Shown here in pieces: positions 10,186 through 34,271 of a stretch of 64,000 bases of DNA (its first letter is position 1; the number at the start of each line of letters is the position of its first letter). The notes under the pieces are model-generated. The model had not been told where the DNA came from. It did not search any database and was given only the letters and a program-made list of their open reading frames with translations. Where the stretch lies: positions 28,253-92,252 of the forward strand of contig MKTU01000020.1 of NCBI GenBank assembly GCA_001898415.1, written 5' to 3'. The DNA is from Rhodanobacter sp. 67-28. GTDB taxonomy: Bacteria > Pseudomonadota > Gammaproteobacteria > Xanthomonadales > Rhodanobacteraceae. The translations under genes were made by a program, and so were the position numbers.

Positions 10186-10478
10186 GAGCGTCCACCCCCA
10201 AACCAGAGCCACGCTCCCAGGACGGGTATCGCGGCGATGGCAATCCAGCACAAGCCGTACAGCCACTGCCACACGGCCGGCAACGCGCCGGACTTGCGAT
10301 CCAGGCGATGCCGTGCGGTCATGCCCACGGCATGCGCGAGCAACCCGGCGATCAGCATCGGAAGGAACACCGGGTGGATTGCGTCGGCAAGCCACGCTCC
10401 AGCCGCCAAGCCGGCGACTGCCGCGCCCGTAACCGAGAGCAGGTCGGCGTGTTTGCGCGCTCGCAGCGAATCGTTCAC
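10182..10478 (-). CDS. Small two- or three-segment membrane protein
   Basis: A 98-residue protein with a charged N-terminus (MNDSLRARKHAD) and hydrophobic stretches at about residues 15-50 and 68-92. I do not recognise a family. It overlaps phosphoketolase upstream and the UbiB-family gene downstream by 4 bp each, so it is almost certainly translated with them. A membrane partner or anchor for the UbiB-like kinase is one possibility. Confidence 0.65.
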   Translation of the reverse strand: MNDSLRARKHADLLSVTGAAVAGLAAGAWLADAIHPVFLPMLIAGLLAHAVGMTARHRLDRKSGALPAVWQWLYGLCWIAIAAIPVLGAWLWFGGGRS

Positions 10479-12937: not shown

Positions 12938-13848
12938 GAGTCCTCCCGCGAATCGGTCGAAGATGACATCAGCGTCGACGCGGCCGCCGCGAGCGCGGCG
13001 CCGAGCGGGATTGCGTTCGACGGGTGGGCGATGGTGTCGGTACTGACGATGCGCGCCAGGCCCGCGGCTTGTAGTTGCGCATAGGCATCGCCTGCAAAGA
13101 CCGGATGGATGGCAACCAGCACCGGCGGCGGCAAGGCCAGGCGCTGCAGGTGCGCCAACGTTTCCAGGATGGTGCGCCCCGAGGAGACGATGTCGTCCAC
13201 CAGCACCGGCGTGCGTCCGGTCGCGGCAGCCGCATCCGGCAGGCTGACGCGCACCTCGTAGTCGCCATGCCGATGCTTGCTCAACACTTGCCAAGGCATT
13301 CCGGCCTGCGCGGCGATGCGGGCCACCCACTGCTCGCTTTCGCTGTCGGGACCGATCAGCATGGCGTCGGGGATTGCATTCGCGATCCAGCTCGCGACAG
13401 CAGGCGTGGCTGAAACGTGCGTCGCCGGGATGCTGTAGAGCGACTGCAACCGATGGAAGCGGTGCAGGTGTGGGTCGACGGTCACCAGCCAGTCGAAGCT
13501 CTCTTCGAGGAAGCGTGCAAACAGCGGTGCGCTGATCGCCTCGCCGCGGTGGAAACGCTTGTCCTGCCGCATGTAGGCCAGGTACGGGGCGATCAATCCG
13601 ACCGAGCGCGCGCCGAACTCGCGCGCCGACTGCGCCGCGAAGCGCAACGGCAGTGCCAGTGGATCGGGATCGCGCAGGCTGACCAGGATCGCGACATCCG
13701 CGCCCTCCAGTGAGTCATCGAGGGTGACCAGCGACTCTCCGTCCGGAAAGTGACGCCAGCCGACTGGGGCGAGACGCGCCTGCAATGCCGGCGCGATCGT
13801 GGCGGCCAGCGAAGCATCGGCCGGGAAGGACATCAGTACACGGTTCAT
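12934..13848 (-). CDS. Ribose-phosphate pyrophosphokinase-like protein
   Basis: A 304-residue PRPP-synthetase family protein. It carries FPDGESLV, PYLAYMRQDKRFHRGEAIS, a degenerate flagged loop/histidine block (TVDPHLHRFH) and the phosphoribosyl-pyrophosphate loop VLVDDIVSSGRTI. The family makes PRPP from ribose 5-phosphate and ATP. Its placement between AMP phosphorylase and phosphoketolase is unlike a housekeeping prs gene and suggests a specialised role, perhaps running in reverse or handling ribose 1,5-bisphosphate/PRPP made by nucleotide phosphorolysis. It overlaps both neighbours by 4 bp. Confidence 0.85.
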   Translation of the reverse strand: MNRVLMSFPADASLAATIAPALQARLAPVGWRHFPDGESLVTLDDSLEGADVAILVSLRDPDPLALPLRFAAQSAREFGARSVGLIAPYLAYMRQDKRFHRGEAISAPLFARFLEESFDWLVTVDPHLHRFHRLQSLYSIPATHVSATPAVASWIANAIPDAMLIGPDSESEQWVARIAAQAGMPWQVLSKHRHGDYEVRVSLPDAAAATGRTPVLVDDIVSSGRTILETLAHLQRLALPPPVLVAIHPVFAGDAYAQLQAAGLARIVSTDTIAHPSNAIPLGAALAAAASTLMSSSTDSREDS

Positions 13849-15359
13849 GTGGCCTCCATGGCGATGTCGAACGGCATGCTTCTCGCAGCGTGCTCCAGTG
13901 CATAGGCCAGCTCTCCGCGCGATTGCGCGTGTACCTTGAACAGCGCCTGCCCGCGCGCGACCACATCGCCGATGCGCAAAGCCGTTTCCAGGCCGGCGAC
14001 GGGCGAGGCGGGTGCACCTGCCAGCTTGGCAATGCGCGCCAGCCGGCGGTTGTCGATCGCGGCGATGCGTCCGCTCATGGTGGCTGCGACTTCGGCCGTG
14101 AATGGCGCTCGCGTTGGCTCGCGGAAGCCGCCCTGCGCTTCGCAGATCGCCATGAACTTCGACAGGGCCTGCCCGGATTGCAAGGCGGCGTGGGCGCGCA
14201 CCATGCCGGTTCCGGCGACACCATCAGGCGCCAGGTCAAGCAACGCGCCCGCCAGGACAATTGCGCGCTCGCGCAGGTCGGCCGGTGCATCCGCGTCGTT
14301 GCGCAACACCTTGAGCACATCGCGCGCTTCCAGCGCAGGGCCGATACCTACGCCCACTGGTTGGGTGCCGTCCGAACGATAGACGCCCAGATGCAGGCCA
14401 AGCGCCGCGGCGGTGCCGCCCAGGCGCACGGTAAGACTGTCGGCGGAGGCGTCGCTGCGCACCTTCGCAGTCGGCCCGACCGGCATGTCGATCAGCACGT
14501 GGGTGGAGCCCGCCGCGATCTTCTTCGACAGCACGCTCGCTACCAGCTGCCCGTCGCTGTCGAAGTCCATGGGACGTTCGACGCGGATCAGTATGTCGTC
14601 CGCCGGGCTCAGGCGCACGTTGCCGCCCCAGACGATGCAGCCACCCTCCTGCTCGACCACCCGGCGCATCGCCGGCAGGTCAAGTGCGACCGGTGCCATC
14701 ACCTCCATCGTGTCGGCGGTGCCGGCTGGCGAGGTGATCGCCCGCGAGGATGTCTTGGGAATGCGATAGCCGAGTGCGGCAACGATGGCAACGACGATGG
14801 GCGTGGTGCGGTTGCCGGGCAGGCCGCCGACACAGTGCTTGTCCAGAACGGGGCCCACGCCCCAGTCGAGCCGCTGGCCCACGGCCACCATCGCGCGGGT
14901 GAGCGAGGTCGTTTCATCTTGATCCAGGCGCTCGCCGGCACAAGCAGTAACGAACGCAGCGAGTTCCAAATCCGACAGGCGGCTGGCGACGGTGTCCTGC
15001 ATCAGGGCGAGGTATTGCGCATCGTCGAGGCGCGCACCGAACACCTTGGCGCGCAGCGCTCCCGCCGAGGCGGCGGGAACGGGATGCCGGAAGCTGGCCA
15101 GCGCACCAGCTTCCGGCGCCAAGGCCAGCCAGGCAGCCTCTGACAGCGCCACTTCGTCGACGGAGACGAAGTCGCCGACCACCACGTTCAGCGTCACGAT
15201 GAGGGAGCGCCCGCCCACCTGTATCTCCACCCGGGTCATGGCCGCGAAACCTTCCGAGCGGCATACCTCGCAGTCGCGGTGCATGTACACCACCGGTTGC
15301 TGGTAGGTGTCGATGCCGGCGCGGATGACGCGCAGGCGGGTATGTGTCAGTACGTCCAT
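13845..15359 (-). CDS. AMP phosphorylase / thymidine phosphorylase family enzyme
   Basis: A 504-residue protein, longer than E. coli DeoA (about 440) because of an N-terminal domain (residues 1-85), as in archaeal-type AMP phosphorylases. The phosphate-binding loop LDKHCVGGLPGNRTT corresponds to the 'KHSxGGxPGNK' variant of AMP phosphorylases rather than the DeoA form. Other family blocks are SSRAITSPAGTADTMEV, GGCIVWGGNVRLSPADD and the C-terminal domain with FTAEVAATMSG. AMP phosphorylases split nucleoside 5'-monophosphates with phosphate into base and ribose 1,5-bisphosphate. It starts 2 bp after the nuclease gene ends. Confidence 0.85.
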   Translation of the reverse strand: MDVLTHTRLRVIRAGIDTYQQPVVYMHRDCEVCRSEGFAAMTRVEIQVGGRSLIVTLNVVVGDFVSVDEVALSEAAWLALAPEAGALASFRHPVPAASAGALRAKVFGARLDDAQYLALMQDTVASRLSDLELAAFVTACAGERLDQDETTSLTRAMVAVGQRLDWGVGPVLDKHCVGGLPGNRTTPIVVAIVAALGYRIPKTSSRAITSPAGTADTMEVMAPVALDLPAMRRVVEQEGGCIVWGGNVRLSPADDILIRVERPMDFDSDGQLVASVLSKKIAAGSTHVLIDMPVGPTAKVRSDASADSLTVRLGGTAAALGLHLGVYRSDGTQPVGVGIGPALEARDVLKVLRNDADAPADLRERAIVLAGALLDLAPDGVAGTGMVRAHAALQSGQALSKFMAICEAQGGFREPTRAPFTAEVAATMSGRIAAIDNRRLARIAKLAGAPASPVAGLETALRIGDVVARGQALFKVHAQSRGELAYALEHAARSMPFDIAMEAT

Positions 15360-15361
15360 GA

Positions 15362-16747
15362 TCAGCGCGCTGCCTCCAGCAGCACCTGCTCCAGATGCTC
15401 GGGCGCGCGCGCACGCCAGCCCAGTTCGCGCTGGATCCGGGCACGCAACGCGTCGGCGGCGTCCGGCTCGCCGTGAGTGACGTAGACGACGCCCGGTGCC
15501 GACGGCGCGGTGCGCATCCAGGCCAGCAGTTCATCGGCATCGGCATGGCCGGAGAAGCCCTGCAGCTGCACGACCTCGGCACGGATGAGCACCTCGCGGC
15601 CGAACATGCGCAATGTGCGCGCGCCCGCGGACAGCGCTGCCCCTCGGGTGCCGCCCGCCTGATAGCCGGCCAGCAGGATGGCATTGCGGTCGTCAGGTCC
15701 AAAGGCTTCGATGTGGTGCAGCACTCGCCCACCGGTGACCATGCCGCTGGCGGAGATAATGATCATCGGCCCGCGCCGGCGGTTGAGCGCCTTGGACTCC
15801 TCGACGCTGTTGACGAAGGTCGCCAGCTCGTACATGCGCCGGCATTCCTCGTCCGACACGTGGTGCTCGCCGTGATGGTCGTGGTAGAGCCGCGTGGCGT
15901 CTACTGCCATCGGGCTGTTTAGGAAGACCGGCACCGCCGGAATCTCGCCCCGCTCCCGCAGCCGAGCCAGATGCAGCATCAACCCCTGGGCACGGCCGAC
16001 GGCGAACGCCGGGATCACGATCACGCCGCCGCGGGAGGCCACGCGGCGCACGATGGGCGCGAGCTCGGCCTCCTGGTCGATGGGGACATGCGCCCGATTG
16101 CCGTAGGTGGATTCGCAGACCAGCACGTCGCAGGCGGGAAGCGGCGAGGGCGGGTTCATCAGCGACTCGTGTTGCCGTCCGAGGTCGCCGCTGAAGTGCA
16201 GGCGCCGGCCATGCACGTCCAGGCTGACATGAGCAGCGCCCAGGATGTGGCCGGCGGGGTGGAAGCGGGCGCGGATGCCGGGCACCACCTCGATGTCTTG
16301 CTCGTAATCGTGCCCCTGCAGCTGCCGCAGGCTCAGCTTGGCGTCACGCTCGGTGTAAAGCGCGAGCGGCTCCTTGTGCTTGGAATAACCCTTGCGCGCC
16401 GCGTACTTCGCCTCTTCCTCCAGCAGGTGCCCACTGTCCGGGAGCAGCAGTCCGCACAGGGCGGCACTGCCTTCGGTGCAGTGAATCTGACCGCGGAATC
16501 CCTGCTTGACCAGTACCGGCAGATAGCCCGAATGATCGAGGTGCGCATGGGTAAGCACGACCGCGTCGATGGAGGCCGGCTCGACCGGGAAAGGCGCCCA
16601 GTTGCGTTCGCGCAGTTGCTTGTAGCCTTGGAACAGCCCGCAGTCGACGAGCACGCGGTGCCCGCCGGCTTCGATCAGGTAACGGGAGCCGGTCACGGTG
16701 CCGGCGGCGCCGAGAAACTGCAGGGTGGATGGCGTTGAGTCGTTCAT
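15362..16747 (-). CDS. Beta-CASP metallo-beta-lactamase nuclease (CPSF73/RNase-like)
   Basis: A 461-residue MBL-fold protein. Metal-binding motifs are THAHLDHSGYLP (HxHxDH, ~62-73), PAGHILGAAH (~167-176) and FSGDLG. The beta-CASP region contains CESTYGNR, ISASGMVTGGRVLHH and FSGHADADELLAW. This is the architecture of RNA-processing exo/endonucleases (RNase J/CPSF73-like) in the bacterial YsH1-type group. It would act on RNA in the cytoplasm. Being immediately followed by an AMP phosphorylase hints that its products feed nucleotide phosphorolysis. Start ATG 16747 lies 26 bp after the P-type ATPase. Confidence 0.88.
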   Translation of the reverse strand: MNDSTPSTLQFLGAAGTVTGSRYLIEAGGHRVLVDCGLFQGYKQLRERNWAPFPVEPASIDAVVLTHAHLDHSGYLPVLVKQGFRGQIHCTEGSAALCGLLLPDSGHLLEEEAKYAARKGYSKHKEPLALYTERDAKLSLRQLQGHDYEQDIEVVPGIRARFHPAGHILGAAHVSLDVHGRRLHFSGDLGRQHESLMNPPSPLPACDVLVCESTYGNRAHVPIDQEAELAPIVRRVASRGGVIVIPAFAVGRAQGLMLHLARLRERGEIPAVPVFLNSPMAVDATRLYHDHHGEHHVSDEECRRMYELATFVNSVEESKALNRRRGPMIIISASGMVTGGRVLHHIEAFGPDDRNAILLAGYQAGGTRGAALSAGARTLRMFGREVLIRAEVVQLQGFSGHADADELLAWMRTAPSAPGVVYVTHGEPDAADALRARIQRELGWRARAPEHLEQVLLEAAR

Positions 16748-16773
16748 GGGTACTCCAGTGAGAGGCAAGCGGC

Positions 16774-19260
16774 TCAGGCCGCAGCCTCGAGGGAACGAGA
16801 AGGTGCCGCTTCGGTGCGCGGCGCCAGCCGTACCCGCCGCAGCATTAGCGCGTTGACGGCGACGATGACCGAGCTGCCCGACATCGACAGCGCCGCGATC
16901 TCCGGCGACAGCGTGAACGGATAGAGCACGCCAGCGGCGAGCGGAAAAGCGACGACGTTGTAACCGACCGCCCACGCCAGGTTCTGGTGCATCTTGCGCA
17001 GCGTGGCGCGGGCGACGGTGATCGCGCGCACGACGTCGTACGGATCACTGCGCATCAGCACGATGTCAGCGCTCTCGATGGCCACGTCCGTCCCGGCACC
17101 GATCGCGAAGCCGACGTCGGCCTGGGTCAACGCGGGCGCGTCGTTGACGCCGTCGCCGACCATGCCGACCTTCTGCCCCTGGGCCTGCAGCTTTTTCACT
17201 TCGTCTGCCTTGCCACCGGGCAGGACGTCTGCCAGTACGATGTCGATGCCGAGATCGCGCGCCACGCGTTCGGCGGTCGGGCGGTTGTCGCCGGTGATCA
17301 TCGCGACCTTGACGTTGCGCCGGTGCAGTTCCTCGATGGTGGCCCGCGAGGTCTCGCGGATCGCATCGGCGATCGCGAACAGGCCTGCCAGCGACGAATC
17401 GACGCCGACGAAGATGACGGTGCGACCGGCGCCGGCCAGGCTCTGGGCGTCGGTGTCCAGTGCGGACAGGTCGATGCCGTGCTCGTCCATCAGCAGGCGG
17501 TTGCCAAGCAGCACCCTCCGGCCGCCCACGACGCCGGTCGCGCCCTGGCCGTCGATGTTGGTGAAAGCCGCGGCGCGCTCGGCGACGGTGCCCGCGCGCT
17601 TGAGGATCGCCTGCGCCAGCGGATGCTCCGAATGCGCCTCGACCGCGGCGGCGCTGGCCAGCAACTGTTCGGCCGTCCAGCCTGGCGCCAGGGCCATGTC
17701 GACGACCTCGGGAGCACCCACGGTCAGCGTGCCGGTCTTGTCGAAGATCACGACGTCGAGCCGCGCGCTCTGCTCGATGGCCTCGGCGTGCTTGAACAGG
17801 ATGCCGTGGCGCGCACCCAGGCCCGTGCCGATCATGATCGCCATCGGCGTGGCGAGGCCGAGCGCATCGGGGCAGGCGATCACGAAGACGGTGATGGTCA
17901 GGGTGAGGGCAAACAGCAGCGTCTGCCCGATCCACCAGAACCAGACCGCGAAGGTCGCCAGGCCGATGACGATCGCCGCAAGCACCAGCCACTGCGAGGC
18001 GCGGTCGGCGAGCAATTGCGCAGGCGCCTTGGAGTTCTGCGCGTCCTGCACCAGCTTGATGATCTGCGCAAGCGCGGTGTCACTGCCGATCTTGGTCGCG
18101 GTATAGGTGAACGCCCCGCTCTTGTTGATCGAGCCGCCGACCACCGCTGCGCCCGGATCCTTGCGCACTGGCATCGACTCGCCCGTTAGCATCGACTCGT
18201 CAACCTGCGAGCTGCCATCAAGCACGGTGCCGTCGACCGGGATTTTCGCGCCGGGTCGGACAACGACCACGTCGCCGACCACGACCTCCGCGGTCGAGAG
18301 CTCGACATCCTGCCCGTTGCGGCGCACCACCGCGCGCGGCGGCGAGAGCTTGAACAGCGCCTTCATCGCATCCGAGGCACCGGCGCGGGCCCGCATTTCC
18401 AGCCAGTGGCCCAACAGGACGAAGGTGAGCAGAACCGCGGATGCCTCGAAGAAGTTCGGGCCGTCGAAGAAGAACGTCGATGCGATGCTGAAGCCGTAGC
18501 CGGTACCGACGCTGAGCAGCACCAGCACCGCCATGTCCAGCACGCCGCGCCGCAGAGAACGGAGCGCCGCACTGAAGAACGGCCAGCCGGGATACAGTAC
18601 CGCGCCGGTTGCTAGCAGCAACAGCCAGATGTTCGCGCGCAGGCCGAAGGGCACCGGTGGTGACGCCGTCAGACCCATCGGCGACCATACGAACACCGGG
18701 ATCGCGAAGGCGAGCGCGACTAGGAAACGGCGGCGCATGTCGCGCGCCGCCGCGTGCAGGTCGCCGCCGTGGTGCATGCCTTCGTGCGGATCGCCACCGG
18801 CTTGCCCGACATGGGAGTCGGCGTCGTGCATCGGGGGCGGGTGGGACGCGTGCACGGCGCCAGTTGCGGACCCGTCCACCGGTCGCGTCGACCCCGCCTC
18901 ATGTGCAGGGTGATCATGGTGAGGGGTAGTCCCGGTCCCGACCTGCGTTGCGCGATCCGCACGTTTCGCACCCGCGCCGATCGCGGCGGACGGGTGCGGA
19001 CCCTCATGCTTCGTTCCAGCGGGCATGCCGGCGTCGCAGTGGAAGCCGCACGCACGGACCGCGGCGGCGATCTCGCCGGGTGCTAGGCGCGCGGGGTCGT
19101 AATCGACCGCGAGCCGTGCGGTGGCGAACTGCGCGACGACCGCGTGCACGCCGGGCAGCGCCTGCACCGCTCGTTCGAGTGTACGCGCGCAGCCGGTAGA
19201 CACCATGTCGCCGATGGGCCAAGTGTGGCGACGGAGTTGGGTTTGGTTGACGTGGAGCAT
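16774..19260 (-). CDS. Heavy-metal (copper-type) P1B ATPase
   Basis: An 828-residue ATP-driven metal exporter of the inner membrane. Layout: an N-terminal heavy-metal-associated domain (residues 1-70) whose usual GMTCxxC is reduced to [13 protein letters not shown] with a single Cys; a His-rich linker (~88-165, with [17 protein letters not shown] and HEGMHHGGD); then eight membrane segments. The membrane motif is [12 protein letters not shown] (CPD rather than CPC or CPH). DKTGTLT is the phosphorylation site, HSEHPLAQA the HP motif, and [10 protein letters not shown] the hinge. Copper is the likeliest ion, but the CPD motif and single-Cys domain leave Cu(I)/Cu(II)/other open. A 196-bp gap precedes it. 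Confidence 0.88.
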
Positions 19261-19456
19261 CGAAGGTCCTTGGCGACGGCATCAGCGCCGGTCACCGCTT
19301 GCGTGGTGTGGAGCATGAGGTGGCAGGGACAAAGACATGGGCGTCATGGTGCGGCGCCAAGTCCGCGGGTAGTAACCACCGCAGGGCGCCCGGACATGGA
19401 CACGGTGGGCCTGTGGCAGTGCATAACGGGTTCCAATGAGTGGTATCGGGGAATAC

Positions 19457-20128
19457 TCACGTGCGGGGGACGTGGCCGCGCGGGCCTGTCGTGCCGGTGC
19501 GCCGCCGCGGAATGAACGCCGGCACCTCACGCATGTACGAGGTATAGGCCTCACCGAAGCGAGCGAGGCTGTCGCGCTCTTCCCGACGCGCAAGTCGCGC
19601 GTACGCCCACAGGAAAACCGGGTACAGCACAAGCGTGATGAGCGTCGGCCATTGCATCAGGAAGCCGGTCAAGACCAACGCGAACGCGACATACTGCGGA
19701 TGTCGCATCCGCGCGTAGATTCCCTCGCGTGCAACCCGCCCATCGCGCTGGGCGCGATATAGCACGGGCCAAGCGGTTGACAGCAGCCAGAAGCCTCCGC
19801 CGATCAACACAAAGCTCGCGATGTGGAACGGGCCAAAGTGTGGGTTTGCACGCCAGCCGAACAGCATCTCGAACAGGTGGCCGGCGTCGTGGCTGAGCCA
19901 GTTCACCTGCGGGTACTTCGCCGCGAGCCAGCCGGACAGAAGATACAGCGTGAGCGGGAAGCCGTACATCTCGGCGAACAGTGCCACGATGAAGGCTGTA
20001 AACATGCTGAAGGCACGCCAGTCCCACCGCGTGAGCGGCTTATAGAAACTCCAGGCAAAGAAGGTAAAAAACGCTACATTGATCAGGGCGAGCAACCAGA
20101 GGCCGTAGCCGTACGCGGTGCCGTGCAT
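19457..20128 (-). CDS. Isoprenylcysteine carboxyl methyltransferase-like membrane protein
   Basis: A 223-residue polytopic membrane protein. The C-terminal half has the ICMT/PEMT pattern: GIYARMRHPQYVAF followed by a hydrophobic hairpin and RLARREERDSLARFGEAYTSYMREVPAFIP. This matches the RHPxY and EE-x-x-L..F-G-x-x-Y-x-x-Y signatures of S-adenosylmethionine-dependent membrane methyltransferases. Bacterial members near metal genes have unknown substrates. Start ATG 20128 is chosen because it is one base from the stop of the DUF2933 gene. A start farther upstream would overlap that gene heavily. Confidence 0.8.
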   Translation of the reverse strand: MHGTAYGYGLWLLALINVAFFTFFAWSFYKPLTRWDWRAFSMFTAFIVALFAEMYGFPLTLYLLSGWLAAKYPQVNWLSHDAGHLFEMLFGWRANPHFGPFHIASFVLIGGGFWLLSTAWPVLYRAQRDGRVAREGIYARMRHPQYVAFALVLTGFLMQWPTLITLVLYPVFLWAYARLARREERDSLARFGEAYTSYMREVPAFIPRRRTGTTGPRGHVPRT

Positions 20129-20129
20129 G

Positions 20130-20459
20130 TCAGTGCCCCCCCGTTTGCGGGCCCGAGCGACGTGCCGGTGTGGTATGGCCCACCGCACCGTTCTCCGATC
20201 CTTCGGCGTCGGTATCTCGGCTGGGGGATGCTTCGGTATTCCCGCGGCGGGTGCTCCTGCCATGGGAACCGTGGCCGACATGCATGCCCATGTGCAGGAG
20301 GGGGCACAGCAGCAGAAAGCCCAGTGGCAACCAGCTCAGCGCCCCGGAGAGGTGGGCGCGGTGTTCGACGACCAGATAGAACGCTGCCAGTGCAAGAAAT
20401 GACCAGAATATCCACCGTCTGGCCGAGGTTGATGCGGAACGCTCGTGAGTGGCAGGCAT
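20130..20459 (-). CDS. DUF2933-type small membrane protein
   Basis: A 109-residue protein starting MPATHERSAS, preceded by CGGAGGA. One or two hydrophobic segments (residues ~15-50) are followed by CPLLHMGMHVGHGSHG, a His/Met-rich motif typical of DUF2933 proteins that sit beside metal transporters. The tail is hydrophilic. Function is unknown; metal handling at the membrane is plausible. It is the first gene of the minus-strand cluster, 95 bases downstream of the start point predicted from the FNR-type promoter at 20561-20602. Confidence 0.75.
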   Translation of the reverse strand: MPATHERSASTSARRWIFWSFLALAAFYLVVEHRAHLSGALSWLPLGFLLLCPLLHMGMHVGHGSHGRSTRRGNTEASPSRDTDAEGSENGAVGHTTPARRSGPQTGGH

Positions 20460-20560
20460 GTCATGTCCTCCGAATATGGCGACCGGGTGGGTCCCCATTG
20501 CGCCGCTCTGCAACAGGGGCTGGAAGCCATCGCTGGAATGTGCGGCGGGCTACGGCTGCG

Positions 20561-20602
20561 ATGCTAGGTCTTTGCCGCTAGACCTAACTTGATCGACGTC
20601 AA
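20561..20602 (-). promoter_or_regulatory. Class II FNR/Anr-type promoter
   Basis: On the minus strand the box TTGACGTCGATCAA (20602-20589) matches the FNR/Anr consensus TTGAT-N4-ATCAA at 9 of 10 positions. It is followed by exactly 22 bases and then TAGCAT (20566-20561) as a -10. That places the box centre at -41.5 from a start near 20554, the geometry of a class II FNR-activated promoter. The first downstream gene is the DUF2933 gene at 20459. Confidence 0.65.
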
Positions 20603-20766
20603 ATGGAACGACGGTTGCCTGGTCCGAACGAGTGCATGTGCTCAAGCAGGCAGCGGCGTACGCAAACTCTGGGTCAACAGCGCATGGATCGGGTTGCTAA
20701 TGTCCAAACGTTGCATGCAGGTAGGCGATCACGTCCTTAGATGTCGAAGTCCGTCAAACTAGTGGC

Positions 20767-20790
20767 GGCATCGGCATCGGCATCGGCATC
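20767..20790. repeat. GGCATC hexamer, four tandem copies
   Basis: Four perfect GGCATC units are followed by a partial GGC. They lie outside any supported gene. Confidence 0.9.
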
Positions 20791-20840
20791 GGCGAGTTGG
20801 CAATAAGGTGCAGTTCACCTTCCGCCAGGCTGATAACACG

Positions 20841-20854
20841 GTGATGTCGATCAC
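20841..20854. promoter_or_regulatory. GTGAT-N4-ATCAC inverted repeat, possible Crp/Fnr-family site
   Basis: Perfect 5-bp half sites separated by four bases resemble Crp/Fnr-family operators. No promoter with suitable spacing is obvious, so the assignment is weak. Confidence 0.25.
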
Positions 20855-20900
20855 TGTGCAGCGGTAACTGAGATGCGTGCCCTGCACGGGCAGGGGCACG

Positions 20901-21299
20901 CTAAGCTTGTCGCAGAAAATCCAGTGTCGGGCAGTGTCCCCCGCGTGGCGCGTGTGTGCAGTCGTCGGCGAGCTGCATGAGTTCCGTTTCCAGCCGCTGC
21001 AGATCCTCCAACTTGCGGCGCACGTCGATGAGCCTGTGTTCAGTCAGTTGACGCGTCTGCTCACAGGCTCGTTTGCCCTTGAGTTGGAGAAGCCCGGCAA
21101 TCTCTTCGAGCGTGAAGCCCATGCTCTTGGCGCGGCGGATGAATTGCAGTCGCGCTACGTCCGGCGGTCCGTAACGGCGCACGCTGCCAAGCGGGCGCGC
21201 GGGCTCCTGCAGCAAACCGATACGCTGGTAATAGCGCACGGTCTCGATGTGCACATCGGCGGTCAAGGCCAGTCGGCCGATGGTGAGGGTTGCAGGCAT
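20901..21299 (-). CDS. merR: Mercury-responsive regulator MerR
   Basis: A 132-residue MerR-family protein with an N-terminal winged helix (TIGRLALTADVHIETVRYYQRIGLL), a dimerisation helix and the three mercury-binding cysteines at 79, 114 and 123, in the spacing known for Tn501/Tn21 MerR. It represses merT without Hg(II) and twists the promoter to activate it when Hg(II) is bound. It is transcribed away from merT; the shared 40-bp region contains the operator. Confidence 0.95.
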   Translation of the reverse strand: MPATLTIGRLALTADVHIETVRYYQRIGLLQEPARPLGSVRRYGPPDVARLQFIRRAKSMGFTLEEIAGLLQLKGKRACEQTRQLTEHRLIDVRRKLEDLQRLETELMQLADDCTHAPRGGHCPTLDFLRQA

Positions 21300-21301
21300 G
21301 C

Positions 21302-21333
21302 TTGACTCCGTAGTCAGGTACGGGAGTTAGTAT
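21302..21333 (+). promoter_or_regulatory. merT promoter and MerR operator
   Basis: TTGACT (21302-21307) and TAGTAT (21328-21333) are separated by 20 bases, the overlong spacer characteristic of MerR-controlled promoters. Inside the spacer CCGTA (21308-21312) and TACGG (21319-21323) form the operator dyad. The predicted start point falls at or next to the merT ATG (21340). Confidence 0.85.
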
Positions 21334-21339
21334 GCGCGC

Positions 21340-21744
21340 ATGAAGACGATATCCACCAAACCCGTGTTCCCTGCCGTGGTTGCGGAAAACACTCAAGGCC
21401 GCAAAAAAACCGGTTCTGGCGCTCTGCTGGCCGGTGGCATCACCGCGCTTTTAGCGTCGACGTGCTGCCTCGGCCCACTGGCGCTGGTCGCCCTGGGGTT
21501 CAGTGGCGCCTGGATCGGTAACCTGACCATGCTTGAGCCGTACCGTCCGTACTTTATTGGCGCAGCGCTGATCGCGATGGTCTTCGCCTGGCGTCGCATC
21601 TACCGGCCCGCCACGGCCTGCGCTCCCGGTGACGTCTGCGCCATGCCGCAAGTCAAGACGGCCTACAAAGTATTGTTCTGGATCGTCGCAGCCTTGGTAT
21701 TACTGGCGCTGACCTTCCCCTATCTCGCCCCGCTGTTTTACTGA
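21340..21744 (+). CDS. merT: Mercuric transport protein MerT
   Basis: A 134-residue inner-membrane protein with three hydrophobic segments. The first carries the vicinal pair Cys42-Cys43 (LASTCCLGPL) that takes Hg(II) from periplasmic MerP. The loop after segment two has a second pair (ACAPGDVC). The body (LVALGFSGAWIGNLTMLEPYRP) is nearly family consensus. The N-terminus is about 20 residues longer than common MerT. ATG 21340 lies at the predicted transcript start, so translation would be leaderless or begin downstream, for example at GTG 21376. Confidence 0.93.
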   Translation: MKTISTKPVFPAVVAENTQGRKKTGSGALLAGGITALLASTCCLGPLALVALGFSGAWIGNLTMLEPYRPYFIGAALIAMVFAWRRIYRPATACAPGDVCAMPQVKTAYKVLFWIVAALVLLALTFPYLAPLFY

Positions 21745-21763
21745 CTCATCGGAGGATCCACCC

Positions 21764-22042
21764 ATGAAGAACCTCGCCGCTCTCATCGTCCTTGCCACCG
21801 CCATTTCCGCACCTGCCTGGGGGGCTACGAAGACCGCCACCCTGTCGGTGTCAGGCATGACGTGTGCCACGTGTCCCATCACCGTCAAGAAAGCGCTGTC
21901 CAAGGTCCCCGGTGTCGAGAAGACCACGATCCTGTTCGACAAGAAGGAAGCCGTCGTGACCTTCGATGACGCCAAGACCAACACCCAGGTACTCGTCAGT
22001 GCCACGACGGATGCGGGCTACCCCTCCACCGTTAAGAACTGA
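21764..22042 (+). CDS. merP: Periplasmic mercury-binding protein MerP
   Basis: A 92-residue protein with a cleavable signal peptide (MKNLAALIVLATAISAPAWGA) and one HMA domain with GMTCATCPITVKKAL (Cys34, Cys37). MerP collects Hg(II) in the periplasm and hands it to the MerT cysteine pair. It starts 19 bp after merT, with a GGAGG-type ribosome site (ATCGGAGGATCC) upstream. Confidence 0.95.
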   Translation: MKNLAALIVLATAISAPAWGATKTATLSVSGMTCATCPITVKKALSKVPGVEKTTILFDKKEAVVTFDDAKTNTQVLVSATTDAGYPSTVKN

Positions 22043-22061
22043 AGCGTCCAAGGCCATTCCC

Positions 22062-22490
22062 ATGTCCCTTCCTAATCCTCTGACGCGCACGGCCGACAAG
22101 GCCGGGGTGATCGGTGCCATCGTCACGGCGATGGGCTGCGCGGCGTGCTTTCCCGCTCTCGCCAGCCTGGGTGCCGCCATCGGGCTGGGCTTTTTGAGCC
22201 AGTACGAGGGTGTGTTCATCCATTACCTGCTGCCGCTGTTCGCCGTCATCGCCCTGCTGGCTAACGTGTTCGGCGGACTACGTCATCGGCAATGGCTGCG
22301 GATGGTCCTTGGCATGGTCGGTCCCGTCTTGGTGCTGGCGGCTGCCTTGCTCATGAGCAGCATGGGGTTGCCCACGGCGTGGTTGCTTTATCCCGGTCTG
22401 GTGTTGATGGTCGCGGTATCGATCTGGGATCTGGTATCCCCGCCGGGAAAAGGTCGCAACGGAGCAAACCGAGACCCTACTTGTTGTTGA
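22062..22490 (+). CDS. merC: Mercury transporter MerC
   Basis: A 142-residue membrane protein with four hydrophobic segments. Segment one holds MGCAACFPALASLG (Cys26, Cys29), the MerC mercury-binding pair, followed by IGLGFLSQYEG. A vicinal Cys-Cys ends the protein (RDPTCC, 141-142). MerC is an alternative Hg(II) importer that can work with or replace MerT. The start at ATG 22062 lies 19 bp after merP. Confidence 0.88.
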   Translation: MSLPNPLTRTADKAGVIGAIVTAMGCAACFPALASLGAAIGLGFLSQYEGVFIHYLLPLFAVIALLANVFGGLRHRQWLRMVLGMVGPVLVLAAALLMSSMGLPTAWLLYPGLVLMVAVSIWDLVSPPGKGRNGANRDPTCC

Positions 22491-22583
22491 GTGGCGGCCA
22501 TGGCCTTCGGCTGACCGGGTCTTGGATCGAGCCTGCGAATAGCCAACGGCTAGGCCCCTCGGCATCGCATCGGGAGATGAAAC

Positions 22584-22685
22584 ATGAAGGCGTGGCTGAT
22601 GGCCAAGAAAACCGACCTTATCACGGCAGCGATCGTCATGGGCATTGTGCTTCTGTTGATCGTCGTGGTGCCCTATTGCTGCTGA
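22584..22685 (+). CDS. 33-residue membrane peptide with C-terminal Cys-Cys
   Basis: A short open frame with a ribosome site (GGGAG, 22572-22576) and start ATG 22584. It encodes a basic N-terminus (MKAWLMAKKTD), one membrane span (~12-30) and the ending VPYCC. The vicinal cysteines recall the Hg-binding ends of MerC and MerA in the same operon. It fills the 303-bp gap between merC and merA on the operon strand. I know no named Mer peptide of this size (MerE and MerF are longer), so the role is a proposal. Confidence 0.5.
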   Translation: MKAWLMAKKTDLITAAIVMGIVLLLIVVVPYCC

Positions 22686-24515
<1,830 letters not shown>

Positions 24516-24639
24516 AAACGAGGCGTCCATCGGACGTCGAAATCTCGATCATTGGCGTTGGGAAATAAGATTGAATTGAAATGGCCGTCACGCGTTATCA
24601 GCAACGATCCGCTTACCGTTAATCAACTGGATAGGCGCC

Positions 24640-25986
24640 ATGGCCAAACCATACGATCTTGTGGTGATTGGGGCCGGAACAGCGGCCATGGTGGCTGCGA
24701 TGCGGATACGTGCAGCTGGTTGGCGCGTTGCGGTTGTCGATTGCCGTCCCTTCGGTGGCACCTGCGCCTTGCGTGGCTGTGATCCCAAAAAGATGCTCAT
24801 TGGCGGTGTGGATGCTACCGACCATGTCCGTCGGATGCAGGGCAAGGGCGTGGCCGGAAACGTCACGATCGATTGGCCCGATTTGATGGCGTTCAAACGC
24901 AGCTTCACCGATCCCGTGCCGGCGAACCATGAACGTCGATATCGCGAAAAAGGGATCGATACCTATCATGGGCAAGCGCGGTTCACGGGGCCCAATACCA
25001 TCGAGATTGATGGGGACATCCTCAATGCCAAACACGTAGTGATTGCCTCCGGTGCGGAGCCCGTCAAATTGCATATCCCGGGCGAGGAGCATCTGGTCAC
25101 CAACGAAGACTTCATGGCGTTGCTGGCGCTGCCACGACGCATCGTGCTCGTCGGTGGCGGCTACATCGCTGCCGAGTTCTCGCACATCGCGGCTCGCGCC
25201 GGTGCGCAGGTGACCATTCTTCAGCATGGCGCGCGCCTATTGAACGGCTTTGACCCCGACCTCGTCGCGTGGCTCATGCAGGCGTTCGATACCATCGGCG
25301 TGAATGTGCGGCTGGAGACCACGGTCACCGCGGTCGAAAAAACAGCCACCGGCTACCGTGTGCGTTCAACCTCCCATGGTGCGACAACAACGACCGATGC
25401 CGATCTCGTCGTACACGCCGCCGGGCGCGCGCCTGCACTGGAGTCGCTTGACCTCGAAGCGGCAGGGATCGCCAACGATCACGGCCGCCTGATGCTCAAC
25501 GAGTACCTGCAGAGCGTGTCCAATCCTGCCGTTTTCGCGGCGGGAGACGCCGCCCAGGTAGGACCGCCGTTGACACCCGTATCGAGCCACGACGCCCACG
25601 TGGTGGCGGCCAATCTTCTCAAAGGCAATCATCGGCAACCCGATTATCGAGGCGTGCCGAGCGTCGTCTTCACGATCCCGCCCATGGCGACCGTGGGGCT
25701 GAGCGAAGCCAAAGCCCGTGAGCAAGGGCTGAAGTTCAAGATGAAATCGCAAAAGGCCTCGGACTGGTTCACCGCGCGCCAAGCGGCCGAGCCCGTGTAC
25801 GGATTCAAGGTGTTGGTGGACGAGGCTAGTGATCGCATTTTGGGTGCCCATCTCGTGGGTCCGCATGCCGAGGAAGTCATCAATCTCTTCGCACTCGCGA
25901 TCCGCCACGATCTCACCGCGGCGGACCTGAAAAACACGATATTCGCCTATCCAACCGGCGCCTCCGACATTGGTTACATGGTCTGA
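24640..25986 (+). CDS. Class I flavin disulfide oxidoreductase (glutathione-reductase-like), catalytic His replaced
   Basis: A 448-residue NAD(P)H/FAD enzyme: FAD loop VIGAGTAAMVAA, redox pair GGTCALRGCDPKK (Cys42, Cys47), second nucleotide loop VLVGGGYIAAEF, and the FAD-contacting VFAAGDAAQ. The C-terminal base motif that reads HPT in glutathione reductase, dihydrolipoamide dehydrogenase and MerA-like relatives reads YPTGASDI here (Tyr in place of His). It lacks MerA's HMA domain and terminal cysteines. Sitting 124 bp after merA on the same strand, it may support thiol balance or metal reduction; the electron acceptor is unknown. Confidence 0.8.
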   Translation: MAKPYDLVVIGAGTAAMVAAMRIRAAGWRVAVVDCRPFGGTCALRGCDPKKMLIGGVDATDHVRRMQGKGVAGNVTIDWPDLMAFKRSFTDPVPANHERRYREKGIDTYHGQARFTGPNTIEIDGDILNAKHVVIASGAEPVKLHIPGEEHLVTNEDFMALLALPRRIVLVGGGYIAAEFSHIAARAGAQVTILQHGARLLNGFDPDLVAWLMQAFDTIGVNVRLETTVTAVEKTATGYRVRSTSHGATTTTDADLVVHAAGRAPALESLDLEAAGIANDHGRLMLNEYLQSVSNPAVFAAGDAAQVGPPLTPVSSHDAHVVAANLLKGNHRQPDYRGVPSVVFTIPPMATVGLSEAKAREQGLKFKMKSQKASDWFTARQAAEPVYGFKVLVDEASDRILGAHLVGPHAEEVINLFALAIRHDLTAADLKNTIFAYPTGASDIGYMV

Positions 25987-26017
25987 GCGCTCGACTAATG
26001 CCGAAACGTACTAGCTA

Positions 26018-26137
26018 GGGAAACTCTGATTTTGCCCTGCGGTCGAAGCCTGACCGGAGGATGGATGGTACGCGATGACGCCCAAGCAGATGAGCCTGTC
26101 GATGCAGCATGACGCCGGTTTCGAGCGGCACTCATAC
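26018..26137 (+). mobile_element. Possible 5' remnant of an IS5-family element
   Basis: The string GGGAAACTCTGATTTTGCCC (from ~26019) resembles the terminal repeats of IS5-type elements. It is followed by a short frame from ATG 26075 starting MTPKQMSLSMQHDAGFERHS, which resembles the N-terminus of IS5-family transposases (QLSL...GFERYRKPTRR type). Similarity stops near 26135, just before the FTR1 stop at 26148. Only this fragment is present. Confidence 0.4.
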
Positions 26138-26147
26138 CGTATCGCCT

Positions 26148-28133
26148 TCACTCTGCATCGGGGAGAACTTCTTTGGCCGTGGTGGCTGACGCGGATGGCT
26201 GGCGGCCACGACGGATATTGAACACGAATCCAACCGCCAGCAACGCCAGAATCGTCAACTGGGCCAGCAGGGATTGCCAAGTCGGATAGATACCCAGCAG
26301 TTCGATATGCGGCACCGGCGCGACGCTCACCGCCACCCAACCGGCCTCCTGCAAGGCGGCGACGCCCTTGCCGGTCAACACGACGGCAAGCACGGCGATC
26401 AGCGCCGAACTGGCGGAGAAGAACGTGCCGATCGGCAGCCGACGACTGGTGCGCAGCAGCACCCAGGCAATCAGTCCCAGCACGGCGGCACCGGCGGCGA
26501 TGCCGCCGAGCAGCCACACTTCTTGGCCGTCGTTCCACAGCGCGGCGTAGAACAGGATGCTCTCGAACACCTCGCGATACACCGAGATGAACGCCAGCCC
26601 GAACAGGAACCACGCCGAACGCCGGTTGAGCGCAGCCGCCATCTTTTCCTTCAGGTACGCCTGCCAGCGACCGCCGATGCTCTTCTGGTGCATCCACAGA
26701 CCCACCCCGAGCAGCACGAACGCCGCAAACAGCGACGACAGCCCCTCGGTCAATTCACGGCCGGCACCGCTGATGGAGATGGCATAGCTGGCGATCGCCC
26801 AGGTAATCCCGCCGGCGACGAGCGCAAGCATCCAGCCCGCGTGCACGTAGCGCAGCGCTTCGGGGCGTGCGGCCTTGCGCAGGAAGGCGAGCAGCGCGAC
26901 CACGACCAGCAGGGCTTCCAGACCCTCCCGCACCAGGATCGTGAAGGCGCCTAGGAAGATGGCGGCAGCATCGCCCGCGGCATCGGTGGTGACTTCCTGG
27001 GCGCGTACCAACAGACCGTCGACAGCATCGGCCTGCTTCACCACAGATGCCACGGAAGCACTGCTCGACAGTGCGGTGCGATAGGCGCCCATCGCCGTCT
27101 CGAGCTGGGCGCGCAGCGCGCCGTCACGTGCATTGAGTTGCGGTTCGACCGGTTCCACCCCATCGAGGTAGGCGGACAGCGCCAGTTGGGTGGCCTGCGT
27201 CTTCGCGCCGGCACGGTAAGCTGCCAGGCTCGCCGCTAGTCGCGCCCGTGCCAGGGGGATGCCAGCCAAGGTCTGCTGCTGGATGACGTCAGGGTGAGCC
27301 CGCAGATAGCCCACGATCGTCCGGGCACGCTCCGCACCGAGGGTGGGCGTCAGCTGCGCGACACGCGCACGCGACAACTCCTTCAGGTCGGCGATCTGCG
27401 TCCGCGCGGCGGTGTCGTGTTGCCAGGTATCGGCACCGGTTGTGGCCTCGTTGGTATATGCCAGCGAACCCACGTAGTACGCCAGCGCCCAACGATCATC
27501 GGAAGAGAGTTGCCGCGCGTAGCTCGCCATCGGTGTGCCTTCCACCCCTTGGCTGATCGCCTCGTACAACGACAGCGCGCTGCGCTGATCTGCCCGCGCC
27601 TGATCGGTGAAGTTCACCGGCCGGGGCGACAGCTGCAGGCCGGCGGGGCCATCGCCGTGTCCGGTAGCGCCATGACAGGCAGCGCATTGGTTTTGATAGA
27701 GCGTGGCCCCGCGCGCCAGATCGGGAGCGCGTTCCGGTGCGGTCGGCACCGGATACGCTTGCAGCAACGCATCGGCCAGCGCATGCGCCTGCATTGCCAC
27801 CTGAGCGGGTGCGGCCTTGGCATCGATCGAGGCCACCAAGGTGTCGGCTTGCGCCAAGAGTACAGGTGTGGCCGCGGTCGGTTGCAAGGCGCTGATGCGT
27901 GATCGGGCTGTCGCCGTGAATTCCCGCATCTCGGCGTACTCGGATGCGCTGATGACAGCGCCATCCTTTACCGCACCGGCATAATCGGTGGCCAGGTAGT
28001 CAAGCATCTGCCAGGTCTGCGGGACGGTGGAAGAGATGTCCTCGGCGTGTGCCGGCAACACCGCTATACCCGACAACAGGAGGGCGGCCACGGCGACGTG
28101 GTGCAAGATATTGCGAATGCGTGTCGTTATCAT
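26148..28133 (-). CDS. FTR1-family metal permease with N-terminal cytochrome c domain
   Basis: A 661-residue fusion. A signal peptide (MITTRIRNILHHVAVAALLLSG..AHA) is followed by a periplasmic part with a c-type heme site CAACH (~147-151), an alpha-helical stretch, then seven membrane segments carrying the two FTR1 motifs REGLEAL (~401) and REVFES (~522). FTR1 proteins import oxidised Fe(III); the fused cytochrome could supply the oxidation step. FTR1-like PbrT proteins move lead, and the neighbouring CDF exporter and Zn/Cd/Pb-type MerR keep that option open. Another start at ATG 28154 adds seven residues; 28133 gives the cleaner signal peptide. Confidence 0.85.
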   Translation of the reverse strand: MITTRIRNILHHVAVAALLLSGIAVLPAHAEDISSTVPQTWQMLDYLATDYAGAVKDGAVISASEYAEMREFTATARSRISALQPTAATPVLLAQADTLVASIDAKAAPAQVAMQAHALADALLQAYPVPTAPERAPDLARGATLYQNQCAACHGATGHGDGPAGLQLSPRPVNFTDQARADQRSALSLYEAISQGVEGTPMASYARQLSSDDRWALAYYVGSLAYTNEATTGADTWQHDTAARTQIADLKELSRARVAQLTPTLGAERARTIVGYLRAHPDVIQQQTLAGIPLARARLAASLAAYRAGAKTQATQLALSAYLDGVEPVEPQLNARDGALRAQLETAMGAYRTALSSSASVASVVKQADAVDGLLVRAQEVTTDAAGDAAAIFLGAFTILVREGLEALLVVVALLAFLRKAARPEALRYVHAGWMLALVAGGITWAIASYAISISGAGRELTEGLSSLFAAFVLLGVGLWMHQKSIGGRWQAYLKEKMAAALNRRSAWFLFGLAFISVYREVFESILFYAALWNDGQEVWLLGGIAAGAAVLGLIAWVLLRTSRRLPIGTFFSASSALIAVLAVVLTGKGVAALQEAGWVAVSVAPVPHIELLGIYPTWQSLLAQLTILALLAVGFVFNIRRGRQPSASATTAKEVLPDAE

Positions 28134-28176
28134 TGTTGGAGTATAGCCAGACATGGATGCGGGGGCAGCATGGCGC

Positions 28177-28806
28177 TCAGAGGACGTGCGTGGGGCGCGA
28201 GCGAAACTGCGGCCAGGCGGATATCAGGACATCGACACCCGTTCGCGCAAAAAGCAGGGCCAGCAACGCGCCAAAGGCCAGATCGAGCCATGTCCAGCTG
28301 CTTGAAGCCATGAGTGCCGTGGTCAGCAAAACGCCGGCATTGCCGATGACGTCATTGCGCGAGCACAGCCAGACCGAGCGCATGTTGATGTCGTGCGAAC
28401 GAAATCGGGTCAGCAACGCGAGGCAGGTGAGATTGGCGATGAGTGCGTCAGCGGCAGCGATCGCCATCACACCCGTCAAGGGCTCGGCGCCCGTCACCAG
28501 CTTGCGGCCAACCTCGGCGATCACGATCCCTGCAAACAGCAACTGGATGCCGCCTTTCACCAAGGCGGACCCCGCCCGCCACTGCAGGGCCTGTCCCACC
28601 GCCCAGAGGCTGAGCGCGTACACCAGCGCATCGCCGAGACTGTCCAGGGAATCCCCCTGCAGCGCGGTCGAATCAGCCCACAGCCCCGCGCCGAATTCGC
28701 CCACGAAGATCGCCACATTGATGAATAGGACCGTCCACAACACGCGCCGCTGGGCCACAGAGCGAGCCAGCGCCTGACCGGTGGATTCACAGTCGCAACA
28801 TGCCAT
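28177..28806 (-). CDS. Short CDF-like cation transporter
   Basis: A 209-residue, six-segment membrane protein with a Cys-rich N-terminus (MACCDCE). It aligns with the membrane part of cation diffusion facilitators but lacks their C-terminal cytoplasmic domain. The metal site differs: segment two reads GDSLDSLGDA (D55xxxD59, FieF-like) and segment five reads SRNDVIGN (DxxxN) rather than the usual HxxxD. ATG 28806 is preferred to GTG 28809. The operator at 28836-28866 drives this gene, so it should be induced by the divergent MerR-family regulator. FTR1 follows 43 bp downstream. Confidence 0.7.
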   Translation of the reverse strand: MACCDCESTGQALARSVAQRRVLWTVLFINVAIFVGEFGAGLWADSTALQGDSLDSLGDALVYALSLWAVGQALQWRAGSALVKGGIQLLFAGIVIAEVGRKLVTGAEPLTGVMAIAAADALIANLTCLALLTRFRSHDINMRSVWLCSRNDVIGNAGVLLTTALMASSSWTWLDLAFGALLALLFARTGVDVLISAWPQFRSRPTHVL

Positions 28807-28835
28807 CACTTGAACTCTTACGCGGTGTGCGGCGT

Positions 28836-28866
28836 AGACTAAAGTCCGTAGCTACTACGGAGTCAA
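28836..28866 (-). promoter_or_regulatory. MerR-family promoter for the CDF/FTR1 genes
   Basis: Read on the minus strand, TTGACT (28866-28861) and TAGTCT (28841-28836) are 19 bases apart. The spacer holds the palindrome CCGTAG-N3-CTACGG (28846-28860 in plus coordinates). This is the standard overlong-spacer promoter of ZntR/CadR/PbrR/MerR regulators, pointing toward the CDF gene. Confidence 0.85.
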
Positions 28867-28871
28867 TCACC

Positions 28872-29258
28872 GTGCGTATCAGCGATCTGGCGAAAGCCAC
28901 CGGCTGTCATCTGGAAACCGTGCGCTACTACGAGCGCATCGGCTTGCTGCCGCCGCCGGACCGGTCGATCGCGGGCTACCGTGACTATCGCGATAGCGAC
29001 GTTGAGCGCTTGCGTTTCATTGTGCGCAACCGCGCACTGGGTTTTAGTCTCGAAGAAATTCGTAGCCTGCTCATGCTCGCATCCCGCACGGAACTGTCGT
29101 GCACGCAGGTCGATGGCGTGGCACGAGCGCATCTGGCGCAAGTGGAGGCCAAGCAGCGCGAACTGGCGGCGCTGGCCGCCGAGCTGCGGGGCATGATCGA
29201 AACGTGCCATCACGATACGCGAGCGACCTGCAGCATCCTGCAATCGCTGGCGGGATAA
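28872..29258 (+). CDS. MerR-family regulator, Zn/Cd/Pb type
   Basis: A 128-residue regulator starting at GTG 28872, with ACGGAG about nine bases upstream. Helix-turn-helix: RISDLAKATGCHLETVRYYERIGLL. Metal ligands are Cys77, Cys112 and Cys120 with HH at 113-114 (TCHHDTRATC), the arrangement of ZntR, CadR and PbrR rather than MerR. It is divergent from the CDF gene, and the operator between them lies immediately upstream of its own start. Which of Zn, Cd or Pb it senses cannot be settled from sequence alone. Confidence 0.85.
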   Translation: MRISDLAKATGCHLETVRYYERIGLLPPPDRSIAGYRDYRDSDVERLRFIVRNRALGFSLEEIRSLLMLASRTELSCTQVDGVARAHLAQVEAKQRELAALAAELRGMIETCHHDTRATCSILQSLAG

Positions 29259-29509
29259 ATAATGAGGGTGTCCTCCATTAGCCATCGTCAGGGGTCAGCG
29301 TCAGAAGTGGCTGTATCCGTTGCCGGATGGCCAGGAGCAAAGCGCGCATGCTCTCCAGCTCAGCCCCCCGTCTACCGCCAACTCGGCGTTGGTTTCGTCG
29401 ATGCTCGTTGCCGATAAGGCTCCCCGTTGATCAGGGTAGGCAAACATCGCCGAAACGGCGATAACCCAAGCCTGATCGCCGCAGACAATCTCCCACACCG
29501 GTAACTTGC

Positions 29510-32611: not shown

Positions 32612-32644
32612 TTTTACATTTTTGGGGGTTGGGCAAAATTAGCC
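32606..32644. repeat. 10-bp inverted repeat across the tnpA stop
   Basis: GGCTAATTTT (32606-32615) and AAAATTAGCC (32635-32644) are perfect complements around a 19-base loop; the first arm contains the tnpA stop codon. It could be a terminator stem or part of an element end. Confidence 0.55.
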
Positions 32645-32874
32645 ATGATGTATTCTATATTTTACATAATATACATTATGCGAAATTAAAGATAGAAGGC
32701 GACAGCCTCCACGGCAATCGTCCGCCAGCGGCGCATCGACCCTCTCCGCCACTGCCTCGCCAGGTGCCAATCAGCTTCTTCCGCCTTCAAAGGACATCGT
32801 TCTTGCTTGGTCGAGGTGTTCGACCTGGGTCATGCGCAGTTGTGCGCGTACTCCGTTGTCGGCGATGTTCTCGC

Positions 32875-33237
<363 letters not shown>

Positions 33238-33293
33238 TCACGCCTGGGATGGAATGCTCGCCACTCCCTCCCCCGCCAGAACCGGAGCGCCCC

Positions 33294-33770: not shown

Positions 33771-33870
33771 ACCGCGAACGCAACGGGGAAAGACGGACAC
33801 CCCGGACGGCGATCCCAAACCGCCGTCGGCGGCCTACAATGCGACTTTGACGGGCGCCAGGGTCACGGAA

Positions 33871-34257: not shown

Positions 34258-34271
34258 GCAACCCGACCGGC

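Follow-up and report, generated by a model that had tools for sequence, protein, structure and literature searches.

Gene Cluster and Upstream Region

The window, that is the whole stretch of 64,000 nucleotides analyzed in this study (G000:C20:28253–92252, where G000 is the genome of Rhodanobacter sp. 67-28), contains a run of minus-strand genes whose first member encodes a small DUF2933 protein. The genes of this run and the features found ahead of it are as follows.

8596–10395, minus strand: ABC1-kinase-like gene (PF03109), possibly the end of the transcript
10475–13330, minus strand: phosphoketolase-like (PF03894, E 2.6e-39; PF09364), longest open reading frame, true start probably further in
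12934–13848, minus strand: ribose-phosphate diphosphokinase-like, or PRPP-synthase-like (NF005537 over cut-off)
13845–15359, minus strand: thymidine/AMP-phosphorylase-like (NF003338 and TIGR02645 over cut-off; AMP phosphorylase model TIGR03327 under cut-off)
15362–16975, minus strand: beta-CASP metallo-beta-lactamase nuclease-like (PF10996, PF07521), longest open reading frame
16774–19260, minus strand: heavy-metal P-type ATPase (TIGR01525 and TIGR01511 over cut-off), with CPD in TM6, YN(X)4P and MSGSS
19457–20281, minus strand: ICMT-family methyltransferase-like (PF04140, E 3e-6), longest open reading frame, true start probably further in
20130–20459, minus strand: DUF2933 small protein, first gene (PF11666, E 6e-16), with ATG at 20459 and GGAGG
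20554, minus strand: predicted transcription start, placed by the -41.5 geometry
20561–20566, minus strand: candidate -10 element TAGCAT (TAACAT in the sister genome G019), from direct reading and spacing statistics
20565–20586, no strand assigned: perfect inverted repeat TAGGTCT-N8-AGACCTA, read between the box and the -10 element, possible second operator
20589–20602, minus strand: FNR-type box TTGACGTCGATCAA from direct reading, the sole TTGAYNNNNRTCAA in the window and one of the 12 genomic TTGACNNNNATCAA sites

The start codons of the ICMT, beta-CASP and phosphoketolase genes are longest-reading-frame guesses. The phosphoketolase-like protein scored far under the cut-offs of the NCBIfam phosphoketolase models. 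In the ATPase, CPD replaced CPC in TM6, a single cysteine was found at the HMA metal site and the N-terminal part included a histidine-rich stretch. The combination of CPD, YN(X)4P and MSGSS was described, in the part of the report consulted, as the signature of a small rhizobial ATPase subtype of three proteins (PMC5552934). In a locus-wide motif scan that was not tied to the cluster gene, CPD occurred in 34 of 95 related loci; another 22 had CPC or CPH alone, and the other 39 had none of the three.

Upstream of the promoter region lies a mer segment with merR, merT, merC and a merA-like reductase gene. Beyond it, a Tn3-type transposase gene at 29510–32611 of the window adjoins the mer and metal-efflux genes.

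Geometry of the Predicted Promoter

The minus strand from 20602 to 20589 reads TTGACGTCGATCAA (TTGAC-GTCG-ATCAA), which matched the FNR consensus TTGATNNNNATCAA at 9 of 10 positions. Exactly 22 bases downstream, the hexamer TAGCAT at 20566–20561 matched TATAAT at four of six positions, among them the second (A) and the sixth (T). The first-pass annotation had described a box with one mismatch in ten to the consensus, 22 bases before TAGCAT on the minus strand and directed at the first gene of the cluster. The coordinates and the spacing were exact, the mismatch count was confirmed, and both the direction of the box and its place ahead of the DUF2933 gene hold. The 22-base spacing puts the center of the box at -41.5, provided that transcription starts near 20554. 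The leader to the likely start codon of the DUF2933 gene, which is preceded by GGAGG, would then be about 95 bases long. No sigma-70 type -35/-10 pair was found in 20100–21400 with spacers of 16–18 bases, a weak result since only 0.3 pairs were expected by chance.

The arrangement is similar to that of the class II FNR promoters of Escherichia coli, such as those of narG, dmsA and nirB, in which a 14-base box is centered at -41.5; according to the portion of that study consulted, 19 of the 23 directly FNR-activated promoters whose start is known carry sites at -41.5 ± 4 (PMC3688515). Different from the E. coli promoters, the one studied here belongs to another genus, precedes other genes, is one base off the consensus and has a dyad before its -10 element. 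A closer likeness was found in the cld promoter of Ideonella dechloratans, which, as excerpted, also combines TTGAC-N4-ATCAA, 9 of 10 consensus positions, class II geometry and a weak -10 element (PMC7349173). In a reporter assay, its box TTGACTTAAATCAA, which carries the same kind of single mismatch, was reported to act as a class II FNR promoter (PMC7349173). That promoter sits on a composite transposon (PMC7349173), comparable to the mosaic history of the Rhodanobacter cluster, and drives a chlorite dismutase gene. Among the literature matches listed, judged by their titles and the starts of their abstracts, no description of this promoter or cluster in Rhodanobacter was found.

Frequency and Spacing of FNR-Type Boxes

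The pattern TTGAYNNNNRTCAA (TTGAY-N4-RTCAA) occurred once in the window, where 0.06 occurrences were expected; at least one was found in 6 of 100 shuffles. A loose pattern with two mismatches allowed gave 18 sites in the window vs. 8.4 expected and is thus little proof for any single site. The scan of the genome for further boxes, proposed with the first-pass annotation, identified 12 TTGACNNNNATCAA sites on both strands of the 4.08 Mb genome and none for the same pattern read backwards. With one mismatch to the full consensus, the genome contained 73 sites compared with 14 for the control. When a box was required to be followed by TANNNT, with spacings of 21 and 22 bases pooled, this genome contained 5 such sites vs. 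0 for the backwards control. The corresponding counts for 45 genomes of the genus, this one included, were 175 and 2, and 6 of the 45 genomes had no such site.

The spacing itself was compared among 227 distinct oriented boxes pooled from related loci. Hexamers matching at least four of the six -10 positions were found 22 bases after the box in 30 cases, 21 bases after it in 16 and 35 bases after it in 10, while each of the remaining spacings from 8 to 37 had 0 to 7. After similar copies were thinned and the promoter under study was dropped, 203 non-redundant boxes were left, of which 24 had such a hexamer at 22 and 13 at 21. The background of this set, for spacings of 5–19 and 25–38, had a mean of 2.1 and a maximum of 9 (at 35). 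A spacing of 21–22 bases between box and -10 element is the preferred one in these bacteria, as predicted for class II sites, so that the class II spacing proposed earlier for this locus is both present and statistically favored in related genomes. In the pooled loci, -10-like hexamers also formed a second, minor peak at a distance of 35 bases from the FNR-type box.

Related Clusters and Recurrence of the Box

Of the 45 genomes of the genus, 17 contained the phosphorylase gene at E 1e-60, as did 76 of the 369 genomes sampled from the class. Its best named match, at 100%, was in a Rhodanobacter metagenome-assembled genome. A DUF2933 relative was detected in 7 of 60 relatives at E 0.001. In those of the 95 loci with a callable run of same-strand genes leading to the phosphorylase gene, 26 boxes lay no more than 350 bases from the start of a called gene, compared with 2 for the pattern with halves swapped and 0 for the reversed pattern. 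Three of the 26 are the promoter under study and its G019 copies, and some loci are apparently the same contig from two collections (L071/L089 and L073/L091). The phosphorylase gene itself was the first gene called behind the box in 10 loci.

A DUF2933 gene lay ahead of the phosphorylase gene in 38 loci. A box within 400 bases was counted in three of them, namely L085, which is this genome, and L071 and L089, so that two genomes carry it. By this count and by a relaxed scan of the 400 bases upstream, the idea that the box is a conserved promoter of all DUF2933-headed clusters was ruled out. Given the counts of 26, 2 and 0 on the one hand and 3 of 38 on the other, FNR-type control of this gene set seems to recur, whereas the exact promoter does not.

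Enzymes of the same kinds are controlled in Bradyrhizobium diazoefficiens by FixK2, an activator of the FNR family that is not known to detect oxygen through an Fe-S cluster. The FixK2 regulon, as described in the parts of the reports consulted, includes a phosphorylase, a PRPP synthase, an MBL hydrolase and a phosphoketolase (PMC9104804, PMC6515984). Deletion of fixK2 lowered expression of bll3117 (phosphorylase) 6.6-fold, of bll3115 (MBL hydrolase) 30.6-fold and of bll2518 (phosphoketolase) 10.0-fold, and FixK2 boxes were given for bll2518 and for bll3117, the head of the predicted operon bll3117-bll3116-bll3115 (PMC9104804). The gene between the two, bll3116, encodes a ribose-phosphate pyrophosphokinase (PMC6515984). 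Different from the Rhodanobacter cluster, the genes under FixK2 form two operons (bll3117-bll3116-bll3115 and bll2518-bll2517), their boxes are less perfect and, in the excerpts consulted, a copper ATPase is part of neither (PMC9104804, PMC6515984).

FNR-Like Regulators and Other Boxes of the Genome

Three Crp/Fnr-type genes (PF00325) were identified in the genome. One (L003) encodes Crp, above the NCBIfam cut-off, and the other two are FNR-like, with scores against the NCBIfam Fnr model of 188 bits (L001) and 205 bits (L002) and a cut-off of 228. When aligned with a solved FNR, L002 possesses C-X2-C-X5-C and a later cysteine, which are all four of the expected ligands. Its gene adjoins hemN, a usual position for FNR/Anr genes. 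Close relatives of L002 were found in all five genomes searched, four of the genus with identities of 87–91% and one of another genus of the family with 62%. L001 (G000:C17, about 127.6 kb) can also be aligned with FNR, but the third N-terminal cysteine of C-X2-C-X5-C is missing from it. The DNA-reading helix contains ETVSR in both L001 and L002 and REMVGR in Crp. The regulator expected for class II membership, one with four cysteines and an ETxSR helix, is thus encoded (L002).

Of the 12 TTGACNNNNATCAA sites, 7 were between genes and 5 inside genes called with a crude gene caller. Three of the latter were well inside called genes (C21, C27, and C49), another was within an opposite-strand reading frame ahead of norB and the remaining one lay right at the beginning of a second beta-CASP reading frame. 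Thus, the sequence of a box alone is no guarantee of function. TTGAYNNNNRTCAA boxes preceded norB (PF22085, PF00115) and genes for a cytochrome c protein, a cytochrome b561, NadA, HemN and a beta-CASP protein. A USP-like gene, named by eye, beside L001 had its own box 27 bases ahead. At spacings of 21–23, the -10 element of the cytochrome c gene matched at 5 of 6 positions, and those of norB, hemN and the USP-like gene at 3 of 6. Moreover, two boxes with class II spacing (G000:C20:9859 and G000:C53:29599; -10 elements at 22 and 21 bases) preceded a gene for a 140-residue protein of no family and OEP and CusB-like genes. At one of the two, a CusA/CzcA gene (over cut-off) and a CusF-like gene were found further downstream; the CusB and CusF matches were under the cut-offs of their models.

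We consider it likely that the site ahead of the DUF2933 gene is a class II FNR-type promoter, a prediction supported by the exact box and spacing, their rarity, the spacing preference in related genomes, the presence of FNR-like regulators and the same regulon theme in Bradyrhizobium. The link to oxygen sensing proposed in the first-pass annotation stands insofar as FNR-like regulators are encoded and the cluster enzymes belong to an FNR-family regulon in Bradyrhizobium; oxygen is perhaps not the sole signal. The box may instead be read mainly by L001, perhaps in response to NO or another signal, and the promoter would then report denitrification rather than oxygen itself. This reading is possible but, on balance, improbable. 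It agrees with the missing cysteine of L001 and with the position of its gene near norB and the cytochrome c gene, both with boxes ahead, and Anr and Dnr binding sites were described as overlapping in Pseudomonas in the part of the report consulted (PMC12403760). Since the ETVSR helices of the two proteins are identical, the box cannot distinguish between them. The complete cysteine set of L002 and its place beside hemN, however, argue for L002.

Inverted Repeat Between Box and -10 Element

The inverted repeat occupies most of the space between the box and the -10 element and overlaps the latter. Its arms are perfect over seven bases; those of G019 extend to nine and reach into the -10 element. 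Among random 28-mers with the local composition, arms of seven bases or more arose at a rate of 0.006 and arms of nine or more at 0.0002. Since the repeat was spotted first and tested afterwards, these probabilities are not a clean test. The repeat is a new detail and is possibly a second operator. If so, control could be dual, with FNR activating and a putative repressor on 20565–20586 blocking the -10 element in the absence of a second signal, which might be a metal. Such control would fit the presence of a metal pump among the genes driven and of two MerR-type genes in the vicinity. We nevertheless regard it as unlikely, given that no second exact copy of the repeat was found in the genome, that sites with two mismatches numbered 5 (its own included) vs. 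3 for the control, and that among related loci its six-base core was confined to copies of this promoter (7 of 173 loci).

A recurrent operator was dropped as an explanation of the repeat, as neither the genome nor the related loci have a second exact copy. Integron-like core sites were dropped by eye, the order of the arms being wrong compared with the consensus. In metal-responsive promoters of the MerR/CueR type, a dyad lies inside a 19-base spacer between the -35 and -10 elements. Here, the dyad was seen and no -35 element was recognizable by eye, and the promoter scan covered spacers of 16–18 bases only.

History of the Predicted Promoter Region

From merR to about 20637, a stretch of about 690 bases, G000 and G019 share the same sequence; beyond that they differ at about one base in ten. 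The identical mer-side segment thus stops about 34 bases upstream of the box. The apparent boundary therefore separates the box from the mer segment and leaves it with the cluster, and the neighborhood was probably rearranged recently. On the merR side (20637–21330 of the window) the two genomes agree fully, and divergence sets in abruptly where this segment ends. In their best tblastn segments, the phosphorylase, nuclease and PRPP-synthase proteins of the two genomes were 100% identical and the DUF2933 proteins 83% identical, which together with the abrupt divergence points to a mosaic history. A palindrome that appeared Crp-like by eye, GTGATGTCGATCAC at 20841–20854, was also found in the mer-side segment, about 240 bases upstream of the box.

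G019 keeps 40 of the 42 bases of the promoter and 86 of the 98 bases of the leader; such conservation is modest proof of a promoter. It is very improbable that the box is an inactive chance match or relic and the cluster is read from elsewhere, such as the upstream mer region: most DUF2933-headed relatives lack the box and the identical mer-side segment ends close to it, but box, spacing, direction and place are jointly rare, and G019 retains the box together with a -10 element, TAACAT, that equally matches TATAAT at four of six positions. An origin of the box in a transposon was considered since the mer operon and the Tn3-type transposase gene adjoin. It was rejected, as the box lies on the cluster side of the boundary and as, of the 62 inverted pairs in 19400–34400, the 25 longest included no terminal repeats bracketing the box. 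Terminal inverted repeats of the Tn3-type transposase were likewise not seen in these 25 pairs.

Proposed Regulation and Its Implications

The predicted class II FNR-type promoter suggests the following account of binding, start point, oxygen response, transcript length and physiology. At low oxygen, an FNR-type activator would switch on a class II promoter of the sigma-70 type. The activator dimer would bind 20589–20602, centered at -41.5, where it would replace the -35 element and contact RNA polymerase. The transcript would begin near 20554 on the minus strand and run from the DUF2933 gene through the ICMT, ATPase, beta-CASP, phosphorylase-like and PRPP-synthase-like genes to the phosphoketolase gene. 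The metal of the CPD-type ATPase is probably copper, and a likely use of the cluster would be copper export once oxygen respiration stops. A likely second use under the same condition would be to feed the ribose of nucleotides into phosphoketolase.

In an extension of this account, the locus would be a two-input promoter on mosaic, probably horizontally acquired DNA, with the FNR box at -41.5 and a putative repressor on the dyad over the spacer and -10 element. We think this quite unlikely. If true, it would tie copper export and nucleotide-to-phosphoketolase salvage together in a single response to anoxia. FNR-type boxes are also carried by the Cus-type copper-efflux genes of this genome.

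As a class II FNR-type promoter, the site is sound yet ordinary, and the type is well known. For a gene set found in many proteobacteria, consisting of a phosphorylase, a PRPP synthase, a beta-CASP nuclease, a phosphoketolase and a CPD-type ATPase, it would provide an entry point at low oxygen that can be tested. When oxygen falls, copper is expected to be mostly Cu(I). Taken together with the FNR-type boxes before the Cus-type genes, the predicted promoter suggests that this Rhodanobacter may raise copper export as oxygen falls.
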